Origin: an uncultured Acidobacteriota bacterium
Lineage (GTDB): Bacteria > Acidobacteriota > CAIWXX01
Length of the DNA: 64,000 nt
NCBI GenBank assembly: GCA_903916735.1
Contig: CAIWXX010000028.1
Coordinates: forward strand, 62,001 to 126,000
Direction: 5' to 3'
Shown here: positions 19,003 to 32,416 of the stretch, piece by piece
How the letters are laid out: every line of letters starts with the position of its first letter
Position numbering within the stretch: position 1 is the first letter of the stretch
The notes under the pieces: model-generated
Database searches by the model: none
What the model was told of the DNA's origin: nothing
What the model saw: only the letters and a program-made list of their open reading frames with translations
Program-made: the position numbers and the translations under genes

Positions 19003-20691
19003 CTAGGACGCGCCGTTTGTTGGGGAAATTCCGACCGATTCGAGCCAGACGTGGCCTTCTGTTCCAGCCGCTACTGATCTACGATCGAACACCAGGTAGA
19101 TGCCGGTAATTTTGCCTGGGTCCAGAGTCCTCCCTGCCATTTCGGGGACTGGTTGGAGATCCGTCATTTTGACGACCTGAAGCGACGCCTCCACGTGACT
19201 CTTCACTGATGCACGAAAAATCATCTCACCTTGGTGTACCTGAAGCCAGATGCGATAGATACGATCGGAGTGCAGGCGGATGACAAAGGAATCGGATGTT
19301 GCGAGTTGCAAAGGCGTTCGAAGACAGAGAGCGACGACCGGCCATGCTCGTGGATCCCGCGACTGGCCTATGCGAAAATGAAGATGAGACCCATCATAGT
19401 TCGCCCTGCTCAAATAATCAGCTTCGGCGTGAAAACGCCTGGATTCGAAGAGAAGCTTTTCGGGCGCGAGTCCCGGCGCCTTCGATAGGGGAGGTTGATC
19501 CGCATATTGCGCGCCCACAAAAATTGGATTTGAAAGAATCCAAGGCACATTCGGATCGAACGGATGGCTGCGTTTGGGCCTGTAGACTTCAGCTCGATAG
19601 GCGCCCGAATCGATTGTGACAAAGCTGACACGGCCGTCCCCGGAAGCGACTTCGATCCCATTGCGCATGATTCTGATCCGGCAGCCGGCCTCCGTCAGAG
19701 CTTCGATCCGCACAGGCCCGCGTGGCACAACATCCCCCATCGCATAAGACACCTTCCCATCCAAGGCCTTGAACCCGAATCCGGTTCCCGAAGCGATGCC
19801 GTCGATAGAAATATAAAAGGATCCGTGGCGTAAGGCGGCAATAATCGCTTCGCGCGTTTTCGGCACTTTCCCTGGAATCCTGATTCGAAGCGTTTTGAAA
19901 AGTGGAAGATAGTCGGGTATGTGGAGCACCATCTGTTGGGAGAGCTCGATGCGAGCGTGCGCGTCGAGCCCGGCAAAGAGAAGGAAATGCCTCTGAGCCG
20001 CTTCATGATCGAAAGCCCGAATCGATTCGGTTGGATAGTGCAGGAACTTCAGATGGAAGTAAACCGGATTGAGCCAATAGAGAGGCAGCGAGGTTGCGAT
20101 TTTCATCCATGAGGCGCCTCGCCAATCGCTGTCTGCATTGATGACTTCCATTCCATCTGCCGGTGGAAGAGGCCACTGTTCCCATGGCGTTTTCATGTGG
20201 AATGGGTGGGCAATGACACTGAACCCACCTTCGCTCGCAATATCCTCCACCGCCTGATCCGGCACCGGCGAAAATTCATACGCCGGCGGTGTATTACCGA
20301 TTGCCAGCATATGTCCCGCGTCGGTCGATACCTCGCTGCCGATGATGAACAATGGTGAATCAGGAGGCTTTTCCTCCGGCCTGGTTGGGCTCCCATGATC
20401 AGTCATGACAACAAAATCAAGGCCGGCCAGCGATGCCTTTCCAGCGATGGCCGCGAAACTCCCGCCTCCGTCGGAATGCGTCGAATGGACATGAATGACA
20501 CCGATCAGCTCAGTGCCGGCGCGTTCCTCCGGTGAGTACCGTGAAATCTTCGTGACAAAAGCGGAAAGAAAAAGAAGGAGGATACAGACGAATCCAGTGA
20601 GGATGCGTCTGAGTTTGCGGGATGGTGGTTCGGTCAACAGCTGTTTCCGTCGCTGTTCGGGACGACTCGAAAGATGCCTTCCGGCCGGCAT
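19003..20691 (-). CDS. Membrane-anchored PHP-domain phosphoesterase
   Basis: A 562-residue protein with a basic N-terminus, one membrane segment (about 29-48), then a PHP metal-dependent hydrolase domain. Metal ligands appear in VIHVHSTHSDGG (about 65-76), VMTDHGSP, GSEVSTDAGHML, VIAHPFH and GLDAHA. The order fits the CehA/McbA-type subgroup. The C-terminal ~250 residues look like beta-rich carbohydrate- or membrane-associated modules. The catalytic part should be outside the cytoplasm. Substrate unknown. Confidence 0.85.
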   Translation of the reverse strand: MPAGRHLSSRPEQRRKQLLTEPPSRKLRRILTGFVCILLLFLSAFVTKISRYSPEERAGTELIGVIHVHSTHSDGGGSFAAIAGKASLAGLDFVVMTDHGSPTRPEEKPPDSPLFIIGSEVSTDAGHMLAIGNTPPAYEFSPVPDQAVEDIASEGGFSVIAHPFHMKTPWEQWPLPPADGMEVINADSDWRGASWMKIATSLPLYWLNPVYFHLKFLHYPTESIRAFDHEAAQRHFLLFAGLDAHARIELSQQMVLHIPDYLPLFKTLRIRIPGKVPKTREAIIAALRHGSFYISIDGIASGTGFGFKALDGKVSYAMGDVVPRGPVRIEALTEAGCRIRIMRNGIEVASGDGRVSFVTIDSGAYRAEVYRPKRSHPFDPNVPWILSNPIFVGAQYADQPPLSKAPGLAPEKLLFESRRFHAEADYLSRANYDGSHLHFRIGQSRDPRAWPVVALCLRTPLQLATSDSFVIRLHSDRIYRIWLQVHQGEMIFRASVKSHVEASLQVVKMTDLQPVPEMAGRTLDPGKITGIYLVFDRRSVAAGTEGHVWLESVGISPTNGAS

Positions 20692-20767
20692 TCGCTGAGG
20701 CTCCCTGATTTAAATTTCTGTGATGAGTTATTCACAATTCGTTCATGTGTCAAGTATTGAGGCGGAT

Positions 20768-21487
20768 TCAGGCGGGGCGAGCAGCCGCTCGATCGATCAA
20801 TGACTTTAGCCCGACGACCGCCGGTCCGATGCCGTCGATGATGGCTCTCGCAAAAAAGAGCCGGCCGATATGCAGCTCATCCAACTCCGGAATGCCGGCG
20901 AGTCGCCTCATCGAGGCTGCGGTCAGGCCGCGACCGGCCCATGTCTGCAGGTTGAGTTTGTGCGCGAGCCGTGCGCATTCACGGAGAACCTGCAAGTCCT
21001 CTTCACGACCTGATTCCGCGAACTTCAACGTGTTGAGCTCGACTCGGGCAATATCCAGTTTGTGGCACGATTTAATCTGATCAATCGATGGGTTGATGAA
21101 TGCCGCCACATCGATGCCGGATTCCCGCAACATCATCTGTGCCCTCTTGACCTGTGTCTGATTGAGAACGACGTCCAGTCCGTCTTCCAGAGGGAGATCT
21201 TCGCGCCGTTCAGGCAGGAGAACCACAGCCGCCGGCTTGAGGCTCACAGCGAATTTCACAAGCTCATTCGATGTTGAAATCTTGAGAATGAACGGAACCT
21301 TGAGAACATCCCGCAGCAACAGGCAGTCGCGCTCGCCGATGTAGCTCCGTTCTCCTTTCACATTGACGCCGATCACATCGGCGCCGGCACGCGTTGCCAG
21401 CAGTGCCAGCTCCACCGGATCCGGCTCAGGTGGACCCACAACCGCACGAATCGCTGCCGCGGTTGTCAGGTCCAGTGCAAGTTTCAT
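20768..21487 (-). CDS. pdxJ: PdxJ homologue with degenerate active site
   Basis: A 239-residue TIM-barrel protein aligning end to end with pyridoxine 5'-phosphate synthase (PDPVELALLATRAGAD, ITVHLRED-equivalent segment, GLDVV, IPELDELHIGR). Residues known in the E. coli enzyme are replaced: His45 by Asn42, Arg47 by Lys44, His52 by Tyr49, Glu72 by Lys69, His193 by Arg186, and Asn9/Asp11/His12/Arg20 are also lost. The fold is kept, so this is probably a non-PdxJ activity or a regulatory relic. Position next to glmM is the usual pdxJ position. ATG at 21487 has GGAG six bases upstream. Confidence 0.85.
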   Translation of the reverse strand: MKLALDLTTAAAIRAVVGPPEPDPVELALLATRAGADVIGVNVKGERSYIGERDCLLLRDVLKVPFILKISTSNELVKFAVSLKPAAVVLLPERREDLPLEDGLDVVLNQTQVKRAQMMLRESGIDVAAFINPSIDQIKSCHKLDIARVELNTLKFAESGREEDLQVLRECARLAHKLNLQTWAGRGLTAASMRRLAGIPELDELHIGRLFFARAIIDGIGPAVVGLKSLIDRAAARPA

Positions 21488-21548
21488 AGTTGACTCCATT
21501 TGAGGTTCCTGAGGACTGAGGGCGGGGAACCCGGGACCATGAGTGTGC

Positions 21549-22859
21549 TCACTTCCCGAGCTGCTCTCCGATCAGCGCTGCCAGTCCCGCGGCCATCCCC
21601 TCGATCTCTCCATGATTCTCCCCTTCAATCATGATGCGGGCCATCATTTCGGTCCCTGAGTACCGGAGAACAAGGCGCCCCCTCCCCTGGAGCTCCTTCT
21701 CGATCATTCCCGCTTTTTGATGGATCTCTGGAATTTCATCAAACACTTTCTTTTCGCGAACCGGCACGTTGAGCAGCACTTGTGGGAATTTCCGCATTGG
21801 GGCGCAGAGCTGGGAAAAGGGCCTGTCGGCGGCCGTCAGAATGTTAAGCACTACAATTGTAGTAAGAAGTCCGTCTCCGGCCGGCTGCATATCGAGGAGG
21901 ATCGTATGGCCGGACTGTTCTCCGCCCAGGGTGGCGCCACGCTTTTCCATCTCCGCCAGAACATACCGATCGCCGACGGTTGTCTTGATGAGGGTGATTC
22001 CGGCTTCCCGCAGGGCGACATCGAGGCCCATGTTGGCCATGACGGTGCTGACGACGAGATTTCCCGGCAGATTCCCGGATGAGGACATGGCGCGGGCGAG
22101 TATGTAGAGAGTGTAATCGCCGTCACGTACTTGTCCCGTTTCATCGACGAAAATAGCACGATCTCCATCGCCGTCGAGCGCAACGCCGATTTCAGCGCCT
22201 GTTTCCCGGACGATGTTTTGCAAGGAGGCCGGATGAAGCGATCCGCACTGGTCGTTAATGTTCCTGCCGTCGGGCGAATCATTGATAATCATGGCATCCA
22301 GCGGCGCGAAGAGCTTCTGAGCGGCTTTCGCCGATGCGCCGTTGGCGCAGTCGATTGCGATTCGAGGGATGCGCTTGAAGTCTGCGTGACGCTTCAGGGC
22401 TGCGACATAATCATTGATGTAGGCTGCTGTCGATGCGCCCGCCGTCGTCGCCATAGGGACGGCATGTGATGGAGATTGTGCAATGGCAGATTCAATAGCC
22501 AGCTCCTCTTCGTCGGGGAGTTTCTTGCCGCCCGCTCCAAAGATCTTGATCCCGTTGTCTTCGTACGGATTGTGCGACGCGGATATGGAGACTGCGGCGC
22601 CAAAAGAGTGTTTCTGAGCGAGCACTGCTGCTGCGGGCGTCGGCAGCACGCCGCCGGGGATGACGTGCCCGCCTGCCTGCTGAATACCGGCGGCGAGAGC
22701 CGCATAGATGGACGTCGAGCTCTGTCGCGTATCCCAACAGATGAAGACGCTTCTGGCGCCTGTTCCGAGTACCGATCCGAGTCGGATGAGTGTGTCGTCG
22801 TCAAGCGGATAAACTCCCGCTTTCCCGCGGATGCCGTCTGTGCCAAAGAGTGCTCCCAT
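21549..22859 (-). CDS. glmM: Phosphoglucosamine mutase
   Basis: Interconverts glucosamine-6-phosphate and glucosamine-1-phosphate for peptidoglycan and LPS precursors. The 436-residue product has FGTDGIRG at the start, the phosphoserine loop ISASHNPYEDNGIK, the metal loop DGDGDRAIF, GGEQSGH, and the phosphate-binding RYSGTE near the end. It follows the cdaR homologue by seven bases on the same strand. GlmM is a known partner of CdaA/CdaR in other bacteria, which fits this cluster. Confidence 0.97.
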   Translation of the reverse strand: MGALFGTDGIRGKAGVYPLDDDTLIRLGSVLGTGARSVFICWDTRQSSTSIYAALAAGIQQAGGHVIPGGVLPTPAAAVLAQKHSFGAAVSISASHNPYEDNGIKIFGAGGKKLPDEEELAIESAIAQSPSHAVPMATTAGASTAAYINDYVAALKRHADFKRIPRIAIDCANGASAKAAQKLFAPLDAMIINDSPDGRNINDQCGSLHPASLQNIVRETGAEIGVALDGDGDRAIFVDETGQVRDGDYTLYILARAMSSSGNLPGNLVVSTVMANMGLDVALREAGITLIKTTVGDRYVLAEMEKRGATLGGEQSGHTILLDMQPAGDGLLTTIVVLNILTAADRPFSQLCAPMRKFPQVLLNVPVREKKVFDEIPEIHQKAGMIEKELQGRGRLVLRYSGTEMMARIMIEGENHGEIEGMAAGLAALIGEQLGK

Positions 22860-22866
22860 AGGTTGC

Positions 22867-23784
22867 CTATCTTACAGCAACTTTGATCTTTTCCGGCTGG
22901 ATTTCAAGGACCTTGAAAATATTGTCGGCATAGTTGCTGAAAACGATATGTGGCGCCAGTTCGTGTTGTCCCGATGCCAGCGTCGCCACATCGATCCGCG
23001 CTCGGATCTCCTCTGACCGAAGATATCGCAATTTGGAGATCGGTCCTTGAACCCTGATCTGGACCGTTGTTGGAGAAACGGTTACCTGCTTCGATCCAGG
23101 CACGGTCTCGACGGGGACATCCATCAGGGTTCGGTACTCCTGCTTCTCAATGATGGTGATGTCGAGCTGTGCGGAGTTCTCCTCGGGGAGTCGACATGAG
23201 GGATCCGGTACAACCAGGGCCACGCGCTGGCTGAGGGATGTGACGAGTCCTTCGACCGAGACCGCTTCTGTCGTCACCGAGCTCAACCGCCGGACTCGCG
23301 ATTGCGGCCCTTCAACGAGAACGCGGGCAGGAGAGGCGTTGAGCGATACAATCTCAAACCCCTCGGCAACCCGGCCTTCCAGGCGAGGACTCACAGCGAC
23401 ACTGCGGCTGTCGCGTTCCTCAATCGCAATGTCAAATCCGGTGGGATTAATCCGGATGACCTGGCATCCGAACGGAAGATCGAAGTTGTCGGCGTTCAGC
23501 GCAATGAGTCGCGTGCCGGGTCTGACGAGACGCATGTCGATTCGAGCGACGAGGCCGGTTTCCCAGATCTTGCGCATGATGGTTGACGACGTCCGAATCC
23601 TGATTTGAACCTGGCTGGGCGGATCGCCGGCAATTTCGAGCGATGGGGGTATATTCACAAATTCGACCGGCGCACGAAAAATCGCCTCCGACATCTCCTC
23701 TCGGGCGACAATAAACCACAAGGTTGTGGCCATGGCCAGCGAAAGCACCTTCAGGCCGATGTTGCGAGTCGGATGAATGGCCAC
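22867..23784 (-). CDS. cdaR: YbbR-domain protein, CdaR-like
   Basis: A 305-residue protein with one N-terminal membrane helix (LKVLSLAMATTLWFIVA) followed by about three YbbR repeats, recognisable from recurring V.GP...V and hydrophobic beta patterns. Starts at GTG (23784) behind GAGAG. Lies between cdaA (12 bases upstream) and glmM (7 bases downstream), the canonical cdaA-cdaR-glmM order. The homologue in Firmicutes modulates diadenylate cyclase; the same role is inferred here. Confidence 0.92.
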   Translation of the reverse strand: MAIHPTRNIGLKVLSLAMATTLWFIVAREEMSEAIFRAPVEFVNIPPSLEIAGDPPSQVQIRIRTSSTIMRKIWETGLVARIDMRLVRPGTRLIALNADNFDLPFGCQVIRINPTGFDIAIEERDSRSVAVSPRLEGRVAEGFEIVSLNASPARVLVEGPQSRVRRLSSVTTEAVSVEGLVTSLSQRVALVVPDPSCRLPEENSAQLDITIIEKQEYRTLMDVPVETVPGSKQVTVSPTTVQIRVQGPISKLRYLRSEEIRARIDVATLASGQHELAPHIVFSNYADNIFKVLEIQPEKIKVAVR

Positions 23785-23796
23785 GATCTGTTCTCT

Positions 23797-24573
23797 CTAT
23801 CTGAGCTCTTCCAGGACGCGCTGCTTGAGAGCATCCCCGGTTAGGTTACGGACAAGGCGGCCTGTGCGGACGAGTGAAATGATACCGGTCTCTTCGGAGA
23901 CGACAAGAATCACGGCATCAGTTTCTTCACTCAGCCCAATCGCTGCGCGATGTCGGGTTCCCAGATCCTTGCTGAGATCATGGCTGAGTGTCAGCGGCAA
24001 AAAACAGGCGGCTGCGGAAATTCGGTTTCCCTGAACAATGGCGGCGCCGTCGTGGAGAGGGGAGGAAGGATTGAACACTGACAGCAGAAGATCGTAAGTG
24101 ACATGCGCATCCAGTGTGACACCGCCTTCAATGTAATTCTTCAACCCGACCTCGCGCTCGATCGCCACAATTGCGCCCATTCTCTGGCTGGCGAGGGTCG
24201 TGCATGCGATCAGGATTTCATCAACAATTTTTTCAGTGGTTGAACGGACGACCCTCGCAAAGAACGGGTTACGCCCGAAACTCGCCAGCCCCTTCTTGAT
24301 CTCTGTTTGGAACAGGACAATGACGATGATGACGATATAAGTGAAGAAATTCCTGAGCAGCCAGTTGACCGTCCGGAGGTGAAAAAATTGCGAACCGTAA
24401 TAGAAAGCGACCATGACGGCTATCCCGAGCACCATCTGGTAGGCCCTCGTGCCGCGGATCAGAGTCAGCACGTTGTAGATGAGGATGGCGATGATGAGAA
24501 TATCGACGATGTCGCTCAATCGAAGGTTCGTCGAGTGCAGGAAGGCCGACAGGCGTTCGATAAAGAGGCTCAT
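23797..24573 (-). CDS. cdaA: Diadenylate cyclase CdaA
   Basis: Makes c-di-AMP from two ATP. The 258-residue protein has three N-terminal membrane helices (about 20-95) and a DAC/DisA_N domain with the catalytic pieces LHDGAAIV and GTRHRAAIGLSEETDA. GAGG lies seven bases before its ATG, which overlaps the folP stop by four bases. c-di-AMP usually governs osmotic balance and cell-wall homeostasis; the cdaR and glmM neighbours support that. Confidence 0.96.
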   Translation of the reverse strand: MSLFIERLSAFLHSTNLRLSDIVDILIIAILIYNVLTLIRGTRAYQMVLGIAVMVAFYYGSQFFHLRTVNWLLRNFFTYIVIIVIVLFQTEIKKGLASFGRNPFFARVVRSTTEKIVDEILIACTTLASQRMGAIVAIEREVGLKNYIEGGVTLDAHVTYDLLLSVFNPSSPLHDGAAIVQGNRISAAACFLPLTLSHDLSKDLGTRHRAAIGLSEETDAVILVVSEETGIISLVRTGRLVRNLTGDALKQRVLEELR

Positions 24574-25433
24574 GACCGCACCTCGGCGCCATCAACACTC
24601 CTCTCGATTGCGAGCCAGACATCCAGTGCGCGCTTGACGGCAGCCACATCATGGACGCGCAGAATGTGAGCTCCCTGCGCGACGGCGTAGAGAGACGAGG
24701 CGATGGTGCCATCGATACGAGCTTCGGGCAGGTCCTGTCCCGTGATGCGTCCGATGAATGCTTTGCGGCTGGTGCCGATGACGACAGGCATTCCGAGAGA
24801 CGCGATTGCCGAAAGGTTCCGAAGCAGCAGCAAATTGTGTTGGAGAGTTTTCCCGAAACCGATTCCGGGATCGATGGCGATGTGATCACGACCGATGCCG
24901 GCGCTCACGGCAGCCGTGACGCGCGCATCGAGAAACGCGCGGATATCACCGACCACATCCTCATACTGTGGATCGGCCTGCATTGCGCGGGGAGTGCCCT
25001 TCATGTGCATGAGAATAATTCCCGCGCCTGTTCCGGCGACGACTCGAAGCATCTCCCGATCCCCACAACCGGCTGTCACGTCATTCACGATCGATGCGCC
25101 GCATTCGATGGCGCCGGCAGCGACATCGGCCTTCGTTGTGTCAATGGAGAGTGGAATATGAATTTTCTGCCGCAGCTCCCTGATGACCGGCAGCACTCTG
25201 TTCATCTCCTCGGTTGCCGAAACCGGATCACTTCCAGGCCGCGTGCTCTCGCCACCGATATCGACGGCATCCGCGCCTTCGCGGGCAAGCCTTTCTGCAT
25301 GTTCGATGGCCCGATCCAGCGAAGCGAATTGGCCTCCATCGGAAAACGAATCAGGCGTGACATTCAGGATTCCCATGATGAAGACACGTTGGGCTCGAAG
25401 ATCCCATGACCCATCGAGAAAATGAAACGCCAC
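24570..25433 (-). CDS. folP: Dihydropteroate synthase
   Basis: Condenses p-aminobenzoate with the pterin pyrophosphate in folate synthesis. Motifs: GILNVTPDSFSDGG, DIGGESTRPGS, SIDTTKADVA, NDVTAG, DPGIGFGKT and GTSRKAFIG. I prefer GTG at 25433, which follows AGAGGAG, giving 287 residues; a TTG at 25451 is possible but has no ribosome site. Coupled to cdaA by a 4-base overlap. Confidence 0.95.
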   Translation of the reverse strand: MAFHFLDGSWDLRAQRVFIMGILNVTPDSFSDGGQFASLDRAIEHAERLAREGADAVDIGGESTRPGSDPVSATEEMNRVLPVIRELRQKIHIPLSIDTTKADVAAGAIECGASIVNDVTAGCGDREMLRVVAGTGAGIILMHMKGTPRAMQADPQYEDVVGDIRAFLDARVTAAVSAGIGRDHIAIDPGIGFGKTLQHNLLLLRNLSAIASLGMPVVIGTSRKAFIGRITGQDLPEARIDGTIASSLYAVAQGAHILRVHDVAAVKRALDVWLAIERSVDGAEVRS

Positions 25434-25630
25434 TCTTCTCCTCTGATTCAAAAAGCCATCGTCAAAACGAATCTATCGCAAAGGCGGGGCAACGCCAAGA
25501 GGAAAACGTCACAATGGGCAAATAAATGTGAGAATGACGATCCGTTGGTTGAGGTGAGATGATATCCGAAATCGAGGGTTTATGGGCGGTAACGACTCCA
25601 TTCACAATTGGCGTTCATGAATCATTTGCG

Positions 25631-26635
25631 CTAGGGCAAATCCTGGGCGGCAAAAAGCCGGCCCTTAAAGCTGACTGCCAGGAGAATCCCCAGACCGGCG
25701 CGATCAGAAGTCAGCCGCCAGATATCCCGATGTTGCGGAGGCAATCCATCGTTCAGCTCCGACCAAGTTGAACCTCCGTCGGTGCTTCTGAAAACGCCTC
25801 CTGTGCCGCGTCCATCGGAATACGTTCCGGCACATAGGGCTTTCGGATAGCCGGTGCTGAATGTCAGGCAGGAGACATCCCTCTTTGAGAGACCGGCAAA
25901 GGTCCAGTTTTCGCCCAGATCCAGAGTCATATAGGCGCCATTCTTGCTCTTCATCATCCCAACGCCATACCTTGCGCCATAGAGCCGATAGGGATGCTTT
26001 GGATCCATAGCAAGCCCGCCGCAGAGATCATATGGCATCATGATGGAAAAAGTACTCATGCCATATTCACTCCATGTCTCTCCTCCATCGATACTCCTAC
26101 CGACACCAGACGCGTACTGTACATACACAAATTGGGGATTTTTTTCAAAAACAAGGATGTGTTTTGGAAAGCCTGCCTGGGACGCCATCTGATTGCAGGA
26201 TAGGCCTCCGTCCGTGCTCTTCCAACTTTCGAATCCAACTGCGAAAATGGTGTCGGGAGAATGAGGGTTGATGGCCATTGCTTCAATTGAATCATATCCT
26301 CCCCACACCTGCTGCCATGTTCGACCGCTATCAACGCTCTTCACGATCAGGCCTTCACCACCGGCATAGATGATTTCCGGATTGGTTGGGTGTGTAGAGG
26401 CATCTTTGATATTTGCCCCTTTTAGCCCCCTATTCATCGGCTCCCATATATCTCCTGACGCTTCATATTTGGCAACGCCTGTGCCGTATGTTCCGGCCAA
26501 AACCATCTTACTTTCTCCGGAACCTGTTGCTGCGATTGTCATTAAAGGACTGATGGTCTCTTTGCCAAATGGCTTCCATGAGGTGCCACTATACAGAGTT
26601 ACATAAGCACCCTTTGATGTCGCTGCACAGAGCAT
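25631..26635 (-). CDS. Asp-box (BNR/sortilin-like) beta-propeller protein, likely N-truncated
   Basis: A 334-residue protein built of BNR/Asp-box repeats: SVDSGRTW, STDGG, SIDGGETW, LDLGENW and STDGGSTW are visible. Such proteins are normally exported, yet no signal peptide is present. The same frame stays open upstream, without another start codon, back to the ftsH stop codon, and that extra segment still reads like propeller sequence. No ribosome site precedes the ATG. I take it as a 5'-truncated gene joined behind ftsH, possibly not expressed. Confidence 0.6.
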   Translation of the reverse strand: MLCAATSKGAYVTLYSGTSWKPFGKETISPLMTIAATGSGESKMVLAGTYGTGVAKYEASGDIWEPMNRGLKGANIKDASTHPTNPEIIYAGGEGLIVKSVDSGRTWQQVWGGYDSIEAMAINPHSPDTIFAVGFESWKSTDGGLSCNQMASQAGFPKHILVFEKNPQFVYVQYASGVGRSIDGGETWSEYGMSTFSIMMPYDLCGGLAMDPKHPYRLYGARYGVGMMKSKNGAYMTLDLGENWTFAGLSKRDVSCLTFSTGYPKALCAGTYSDGRGTGGVFRSTDGGSTWSELNDGLPPQHRDIWRLTSDRAGLGILLAVSFKGRLFAAQDLP

Positions 26636-28592: not shown

Positions 28593-29114
28593 CTATGCCG
28601 TTTCTCTTTCGGCAAGGAAAGGAAGGTTTCGGTAGCAACCATCCACGTCCAGACCGTAGCCAACCAGAAATTGGTCGGGAACGACGAACCCTGAATAATC
28701 GCAAGTAAACTCCACCTTCCTCTTTTGTATCTTGTCGAGAAGGAAGCAGCTTTTCAAAGATGCCGGAGCCTGCAACTCCATTTGCCTGAGCAGATAATCC
28801 TGTGTGATGCCAGTGTCGATGACCGATCCGACAAGCAGAACATCCCGGCCTTCCAGCTTAGTGTCGCTCAGAAAATGGATCTCCGTCAGATTGTGGCGAT
28901 TACCGGCACCCGTCTCTTTAACAACCCTGACGAAATAGCACGAAACAGGAACATCGAGCTCACGGACGAGATCGGCCAAAAAGACAAACGAGCTGTTCAG
29001 TATCCCGATGGCCGTGATCTCTCGGCCGTCATAATCCCGGCTGATAGACTTGCCGAGCTCTCTGACCTTCTCGGCAATCTGCTCCCGGGAGTACACAACC
29101 CTTAATTCACTCAA
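28593..29114 (-). CDS. hpt: Hypoxanthine phosphoribosyltransferase homologue, altered active site
   Basis: A 173-residue HPRT-fold protein. The overall layout is kept, with [16 protein letters not shown] and YRNLPFL matching the family. But the PPi loop LKGS/LRGS is LNSS (Asn40-Ser41), and the ribose-phosphate motif EDIIDTG is GSVIDTG (Gly96-Ser97), so the two acidic residues that contact PRPP are gone. It starts at TTG (29112-29114) behind GGAGG. The position hpt-ftsH is common. Function may differ from classical salvage. Confidence 0.88.
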
Positions 29115-31045: not shown

Positions 31046-32416
31046 TTACAGGAATTTGAATCGAATCTCCAGTACCTGCCGAGTTGAACGGGTTACTTTG
31101 AATTCGTCGGCGACGGGCAGGCCCGGTATCCAACAAATCCGGGAATCGTTGGAGATGACCGGCAGTATGGACGCGAGGCATGCTGGAATTTTCCGATTGC
31201 TGAGCATTTTCTTCACCTGCCGCGGAAGGCTTTCGCCGCATGGAGTGTAGGTTTCATCAAGCCGACGGTTCCGAACCACGAAATGGCTGCCTGTTTTGTC
31301 GAAATCCATATAGCAGGCGCGGGAATCATCGATGTCGGGTTTCGGAGGGAAATCAGCTGGATAAAGCAAACGAGATTCCAGAATGCCGGATGGAGTATCG
31401 ATGCCCCCGGGGATAGGCAATTCAGCGAGAAATTCGGGGGCGTGTCGGGTCTTACGCGCGAGCCAAATGACGCCGCCTTGACGGAATGCATGAACCCCCC
31501 TCGGCAATGCTCCGCTGAAGGCCGCGGGTGCTCCTGGATCCAGGCTCCAGTGAATGAGTCTCTCGGTGACTTTGAATTCCAAGTGACTTTTTAATTGGGC
31601 CGCGGCGAGTCGAAGAACTCGGGAGATCAGAGGCAGCGGGAGTTCTGCAAGCTTCTGCCTTACGATGCCGGTGGCTTGACGGCTTTTGTGTTGGCAGCAT
31701 CGATCGAATGCGTCCTGTGCGAGTCCCTTCAGATAGGATTCTTCCCACTGCAAAATGGCGATGGTTGACTTGATTCGCTCCAGGCTCCCGGAAGAGATCG
31801 CTTCCAGCTGCGGAATCAGCCCGGCACGGAGATGGTTTCGTAAAAACCGCGTGTCTGTATTGGATGAATCGATGACAAATGAAAGGCCGTGTTCGTGGAG
31901 GTAGTCGATCAGCAGCGCTTTTCTGATGTCGATGAGAGGCCGGACGAAGATGCCGTGAACGGGAGCGATCGCCGTCAACCCGGTGCGTCCACTCCCACGC
32001 ATCAGTTTCATGAAGAAAGTTTCGATGAGGTCGTCAGTGGTGTGGCCCAGGGCGATTTTTCCAGCGCCGCATTGCGTGGCGGAAGAGCGCAGAAAAGATC
32101 GGCGCAAACGTCGTGCGCAGTCTTCCAGGTTGCCCCGCTCACGCCGCGATGTTTCCGCAACATCCGCTTCGCCGGAAAAGAACTCGAATCCCAGAGAGGC
32201 TGCAAGGTCGCGGACAAACCCGGCATCCCGATCAGACTCGGCACCACGCAGATGGTGATTGAAATGCGCCACTGCAAGTTCCAACCCCATTTCTCGAAGG
32301 AGATAGAGGAGTGCTGTCGAGTCAGGGCCGCCGGAACATGCGACAAGCACTTTTTCAGGCGGCGAAAACATTTTGTGTTTTTCCACGGTGGCGCGGACAA
32401 TTTCCAGAAGTTCCAT
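31046..32416 (-). CDS. tilS: tRNA(Ile)-lysidine synthase
   Basis: Modifies C34 of tRNA-Ile(CAU) to lysidine so that it reads AUA. The 456-residue protein has the PP-loop SGGPDS (about 30-35), FNHHLRGAESD, the N-terminal N-type ATP pyrophosphatase domain, and C-terminal TilS domains. An ATG start without a clear ribosome site. A CAT tRNA gene lies about 500 bases upstream on the same strand, possibly its substrate or tRNA-Met. Confidence 0.96.
   Translation of the reverse strand: MELLEIVRATVEKHKMFSPPEKVLVACSGGPDSTALLYLLREMGLELAVAHFNHHLRGAESDRDAGFVRDLAASLGFEFFSGEADVAETSRRERGNLEDCARRLRRSFLRSSATQCGAGKIALGHTTDDLIETFFMKLMRGSGRTGLTAIAPVHGIFVRPLIDIRKALLIDYLHEHGLSFVIDSSNTDTRFLRNHLRAGLIPQLEAISSGSLERIKSTIAILQWEESYLKGLAQDAFDRCCQHKSRQATGIVRQKLAELPLPLISRVLRLAAAQLKSHLEFKVTERLIHWSLDPGAPAAFSGALPRGVHAFRQGGVIWLARKTRHAPEFLAELPIPGGIDTPSGILESRLLYPADFPPKPDIDDSRACYMDFDKTGSHFVVRNRRLDETYTPCGESLPRQVKKMLSNRKIPACLASILPVISNDSRICWIPGLPVADEFKVTRSTRQVLEIRFKFL

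Follow-up and report, generated by a model that had tools for sequence, protein, structure and literature searches.

We observed that the gene directly following glmM in the genome of an uncultured Acidobacteriota bacterium encodes an intact PdxJ barrel with a replaced active site. Comparison with related genomes gives good support to the conclusion that this protein, which we call pdxJ*, has lost PdxJ catalysis and is retained for another function. In the account that we favor, an ancestral pdxJ would have lost its PNP synthase activity once PdxST made PLP, and would have been kept with a new pocket.

pdxJ* lies in a cell-envelope/c-di-AMP gene cluster

The window analysed here is the whole stretch of 64,000 nucleotides from this genome. 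On its minus strand the genes are ordered ftsH, a repeat ORF, folP, cdaA, ybbR, glmM, pdxJ*, a PHP-type hydrolase and a 5'-3' exonuclease:

20768-21487, minus strand: pdxJ*, PdxJ fold with remodelled active site, 239 aa, ATG at 21487
21549-22859, minus strand: glmM, phosphoglucosamine mutase, directly upstream of pdxJ* with a 61 bp gap, TIGR01455 above cut-off
22867-23784, minus strand: ybbR/cdaR-like gene, PF07949
23797-24573, minus strand: cdaA diadenylate cyclase, TIGR00159 above cut-off
24570-25451, minus strand: folP dihydropteroate synthase, profile matches
19003-20691, minus strand: PHP/CehA-type metallohydrolase-like gene, directly downstream of pdxJ*, in the same place and 52% identical in the sister genome
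18032-18928, minus strand: 5'-3' exonuclease (PolI N-terminal type), the conserved next gene in the sister genome

The sister is JACPPM01 ('Acidobacteria bacterium NC_groundwater_627_Ag_B-0.1um_62_56'), of the same family (f1); these two genomes represent their order in the set compared. They have the cluster from ftsH through folP-cdaA-ybbR-glmM to pdxJ* in common. The sequence-only reading had placed the gene beside glmM with a good ribosome site, and both points hold: pdxJ* is directly 3' of glmM, and a GGAG Shine-Dalgarno lies 6 nt upstream of the ATG at 21487. The longest frame spans 20768-21499 on the minus strand, with the start given by the ORF finder. We preferred 21487 over 21499 because of this Shine-Dalgarno and because it matches the start of the sister gene, a GTG at the equivalent codon, which overlaps the glmM stop.

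Several further features were noted around the cluster. The ORF between ftsH and folP (25631-26635, minus strand) encodes 334 aa with repeats that look beta-propeller-like by eye, and a similar ORF in the sister sits outside the cluster (L077:16801-18099). Upstream of ftsH are homologues of tilS and hpt (31061-32404 and 28596-29114, minus strand), separated by ~1.9 kb in the window and adjacent in the sister. Between pdxJ* and the PHP gene (~20690-20760, minus strand) we saw by eye a TTGACA-like sequence with a weak -10, and here the PHP gene may be transcribed from a promoter of its own.

The PdxJ fold is complete

The Pfam PdxJ profile (PF03740) matched pdxJ* over profile positions 1-233 with 172 bits against a cut-off of 24.5 (1.3e-50), and E. 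coli PdxJ (1m5w/1ho1) matched over nearly the whole length (~9e-36). This is the single PF03740 match in the window genome, and no second PdxJ is present in an assembly that is 98.7% complete. pdxJ* falls below every NCBIfam PdxJ cut-off, scoring 175.3 against 190 for the equivalog NF003625 and 146.9 against 192.75 for TIGR00559.

An AlphaFold2 model, built with 46 window and locus sequences, confirmed the full-length barrel that had been proposed from an alignment by eye. It has eight strands, a pLDDT of 94.2 and a pTM of 0.91, and its best Foldseek matches in the PDB are all PdxJ, with TM 0.92-0.93 to 3gk0 and 1ho1. Other phosphate-binding barrels come next, below the PdxJ structures, with TM mostly 0.6-0.7. 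Proteins such as ribulose-phosphate 3-epimerase, IGPS, TrpA and thiamin phosphate synthase have the same general barrel, in which the phosphate site is formed at strands 7 and 8, but are only 11-17% identical to pdxJ*, and no shared catalytic motif was identified.

The catalytic residues and most ligand residues are replaced

In E. coli PdxJ, H45, E72 and H193 are catalytic, and the other residues considered here are substrate ligands. Residues 6-239 of the E. coli reference sequence used match 1m5w. On alignment to this reference, every loss claimed in the sequence-only reading was found: H45 is N, E72 is K and H193 is R, and among the ligands N9 is D, D11 is T, H12 is T, R20 is V, R47 is K and H52 is Y. 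Beyond that list, T102 is P and H216 is R; E153, T156, G194 and G215 are kept. The sister shares D9, T11, N45, K47, K72, P102, R193 and R216, and carries C12, A20 and Q52 where the window protein has T, V and Y. A new lysine stands at the end of strand 3, and the formal net charge summed over 15 ligand positions, -1 in E. coli, is +2/+3 in family f1. The canonical PdxJ sequences compared, from Acidobacteriota, Verrucomicrobia and E. coli, all keep H45, E72 and H193 where readable, and the replacements in pdxJ* are therefore far beyond chance.

pdxJ* thus resembles PdxJ (PF03740, TIGR00559; E. coli 1ho1/1m5w) in fold, length, lid segment (PERRE...GLDV), phosphate-site glycines and place after glmM. 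It differs in its catalytic trio and other listed side-chain ligands, in that the sister has no PdxA, and in that PdxST supplies PLP.

The new pocket is conserved

Between the two f1 genomes, pdxJ* is 61% identical, compared with 62% for glmM, 59% for folP and 60% for ybbR. With pN at 0.254 and pS at 0.675, the dN/dS of pdxJ* is ~0.18, a value that is approximate because dS is near saturation. We defined the catalytic face as the positions at the C-terminal strand ends, using secondary structure and not ligand-complex coordinates. On this face 36/40 positions (90%) are identical; the opposite face has 15/38 (39%) and the whole protein 143/238 (catalytic face versus the rest, Fisher 1.2e-5). 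The comparison is of one pair because only two genomes carry this version. When we searched the contigs of named genomes for further copies with a two-row profile, the sister and ordinary PdxJ were the only matches. In pairs of working PdxJ with comparable overall identity, the values are 0.78-0.88 for the catalytic face and 0.45-0.61 for the opposite one. Near-invariant on the f1 catalytic face are D10, T12, N46, K48, K73, S75-T76-S77, N136, K159, R190, H210 and R213, counted from the ORF start at 21499. By this measure, the f1 pocket is conserved just as well as that of a working PdxJ, yet it is a different pocket.

Together, the dN/dS and the pocket conservation indicate that pdxJ* is not decaying but is under strong purifying selection. 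The earlier claim that the gene is no relic is upheld by these two tests, although the clean reading frame on which it had leaned is a weak argument.

PdxST replaces PdxJ in Acidobacteriota

A genome search for PLP genes, which had been suggested as a check, revealed no canonical pdxJ in the window genome. It revealed PdxA above the TIGR00557 cut-off and a complete pdxR-pdxS-pdxT operon, encoding a PdxR-like MocR regulator, PdxS and PdxT, which indicates that PLP comes from the alternative, PdxST-dependent route. Enzymes of the PdxA type can act in the catabolism of sugar acids. In the sister, PdxS is present, and PdxA was looked for and not found.

Among 396 Acidobacteriota, PdxJ occurs in 287, PdxS (over cut-off) in 104 and both in 14. 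PdxJ is accordingly found in 14/104 genomes with PdxS, compared to 273/292 of the others (Fisher 4e-54, not corrected for relatedness), and a repeat PF03740 search, covering 73 of the 90 genomes that have PdxS but no PdxJ, gave no match over cut-off. From this near mutual exclusion we conclude that PdxST replaces PdxJ in the phylum. PdxH was dropped as a pathway marker since it is absent from most of the checked Acidobacteriota with a working PdxJ and is uninformative. As a separate observation, G168, G127, G005, G025 and other genomes have PdxJ and PdxA with no PF10590-type PNP oxidase match, which leaves a pathway hole.

A survey of PLP pathways took pdxJ to be the signature gene for DXP-dependent synthesis and listed ten genomes with both routes, in which the DXP-dependent one looked incomplete (PMC9997740). 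Its passages on these both-route genomes contain no discussion of PdxJ active-site loss (PMC9997740). We found no description of a degenerate PdxJ in the literature searched, which was thin in subscription journals.

Other families also carry degenerate PdxJ

Both E72 and H193 are lost in 7/14 genomes that have PdxS and PdxJ, and the remaining 7/14 are intact at both positions. The seven fall into five families: the window genome and its sister (f1), G070 (f40, locus L100), G278 (f79, L101), G109 (f53, L102), and G197 and G371 (f67, L103/L104). Among 61 sequences checked from PdxS-negative Acidobacteriota, a few of them partial, none has lost E72 or H193 where the position can be read. PdxA is missing from 6/7 degenerate genomes, while the seven intact ones all have it (Fisher 0.005).

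L100-L104 resemble pdxJ* in the loss of E72 and H193, in the presence of PdxS and in the place of the gene, which directly follows glmM in 7/7 degenerate genomes. Their genomes lack PdxA, as does the f1 sister. Unlike f1, they keep D11, R20, R47 and mostly H45 and H52, and where catalytic residues are lost, f40, f53, f79 and f67 differ in what replaces them. The most divergent copy, L103, is still modelled as an intact barrel (pLDDT 95.1). The f67 pair is 82% identical, with a dN/dS of ~0.03 at nearly saturated synonymous sites, and is evenly constrained on its two faces (0.85 and 0.81). Catalytic-face identity is 0.57 between the f40 copy and a canonical f17 copy and 0.60 between f79 and f53. 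With these lower values for the f40, f53 and f79 pockets, the new function may differ between families.

Variants with N9-N11-K12-D194 (L081-L085, L099 and others) were considered as degenerate and ruled out, as H45, E72 and H193 are kept. They belong to a separate PdxJ variant group (L081-L085, L099, L136, L137, L139, L141-L143, L145-L147, L149, L150 and L153), in which N11, mostly K12 (one A12) and D194 replace D11, H12 and G194; L083, the member tested, scored best with NF003626.

Degenerate copies probably arose more than once

A tree of PdxJ proteins had been proposed as a check for a conserved clade. The f1 pair shares its key replacements. A common clade with the other degenerate copies is unstable: the seven group together in a 78-row tree with active-site columns removed (85/89), whereas a 35-row tree sets the f1 pair apart and recovers all seven together in 3% of bootstraps. 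A tree of the neighboring genes (ftsH, folP and cdaA) rejects one clade of degenerate genomes (AU p 2e-5) and points to a separate origin of L100-L104 and f1. Based on these two results we set aside a single origin for the degenerate copies. It is likelier that PdxJ was inactivated independently at least twice, with long branches and the f1 sister placement as caveats. The neighbor-gene tree places f1 with f5, a grouping that PdxJ itself rejects (AU p 2e-4). The glmM of G340 (locus L112) is ~43% identical to those of two family-mates, themselves 80% identical, while the neighboring genes agree; a gene replacement is possible.

A pocket proposed to bind a phospho-metabolite, and the alternatives

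Most likely, the PdxJ barrel was co-opted after the PdxST takeover, with a more anionic phospho-metabolite as the compound that it binds or converts. The ancestral pdxJ would have stayed in place after glmM. Once PdxST provided PLP in this lineage, the protein would have lost PNP synthase activity, and its TIM barrel would have been retained with the pocket rebuilt. Its phosphate site, formed by the backbone at G191 and G212, would still be used, and the added basic groups K73, R190 and R213, with K48 replacing R47, would bind a ligand with more negative charge than either substrate of PdxJ, to serve a new reaction or sensing. We rank a new enzyme activity ahead of pure sensing or scaffolding, because the pocket and not the surface is conserved.

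A non-catalytic pseudoenzyme, in which the barrel would be a partner, structural or regulatory, of another protein (GlmM or CdaA, for example) or a phospho-metabolite sensor, is a less likely explanation, though one to be taken seriously. The place directly after glmM in all seven degenerate genomes would fit such a partner, as would the replacements that differ among f40, f53, f79 and f67, expected if chemistry no longer matters, and the even constraint on both faces in f67; however, working pdxJ has the same ancestral place, and f1 conserves its pocket rather than its outside. Plant PDX1.2-type pseudoenzymes of the PdxS family are catalytically dead PLP synthase relatives that are kept by selection and act in complex with active PDX1. 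Like pdxJ*, they are kept relatives of PLP-synthesis enzymes, but from a different family (PdxS, not PdxJ).

It is very improbable that pdxJ* is still a PNP synthase with an alternative residue set. The full-length fold, the phosphate-binding glycines, E153 and T156 are preserved in the window genome, which also keeps PdxA, but the catalytic trio and all listed side-chain ligands are gone, every NCBIfam PdxJ cut-off is missed, PdxST is present, and PdxA is absent from the sister and five other degenerate genomes. We consider a relic decaying under relaxed selection hardly more credible: the PLP route has been replaced and most PdxS genomes have no pdxJ, yet the frame is open in two divergent genomes, the pocket is 90% identical and dN/dS is low in both f1 and f67 (for the latter with dS saturated in places). 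Both f1 genomes are draft assemblies and the sister is a MAG, but an assembly or binning artefact is next to inconceivable given the same operon and replaced residues in two genomes with flanking genes of matching divergence.

The sequence-only reading had also raised a new function within the envelope/c-di-AMP cluster. Its first half, a new function, is well supported by PdxST, the PdxA-less sister and the strong purifying selection on the new pocket, but the link to the cluster is one of position. Canonical pdxJ lies right after glmM in most genomes checked of f17, f38, f45, f30, f21 and f5; since presumably working pdxJ has this place too, the place is inherited and lends no support to a c-di-AMP link. 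The neighborhood suggests the amino-sugar phosphates of the GlmM step as candidate ligands, if weakly. In Firmicutes, CdaA and GlmM form a complex, and CdaA-GlmM inhibition is known (PMC8573169). By analogy, a role for pdxJ* in CdaA-GlmM regulation is conceivable. More speculatively, and in our opinion doubtfully, a second, non-vitamin role of the glmM-locus PdxJ might have kept the gene in at least two lineages (f1; f40/f53/f79/f67) while the active site was rebuilt; in f1 the result would be a new enzyme or sensor for a phospho-metabolite, acting on the cell-envelope/c-di-AMP pathway.

Significance

Each of L100-L102 clears one or more of the NCBIfam equivalog cut-offs for PNP synthase, so that predicted pathways will be wrong in genomes of this kind. 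If pdxJ* has been repurposed, it would be a clear example from nature of a biosynthetic enzyme that was set free when its pathway was replaced and then acquired a new pocket; for comparison, the same phylum contains both working and partly degenerate forms.
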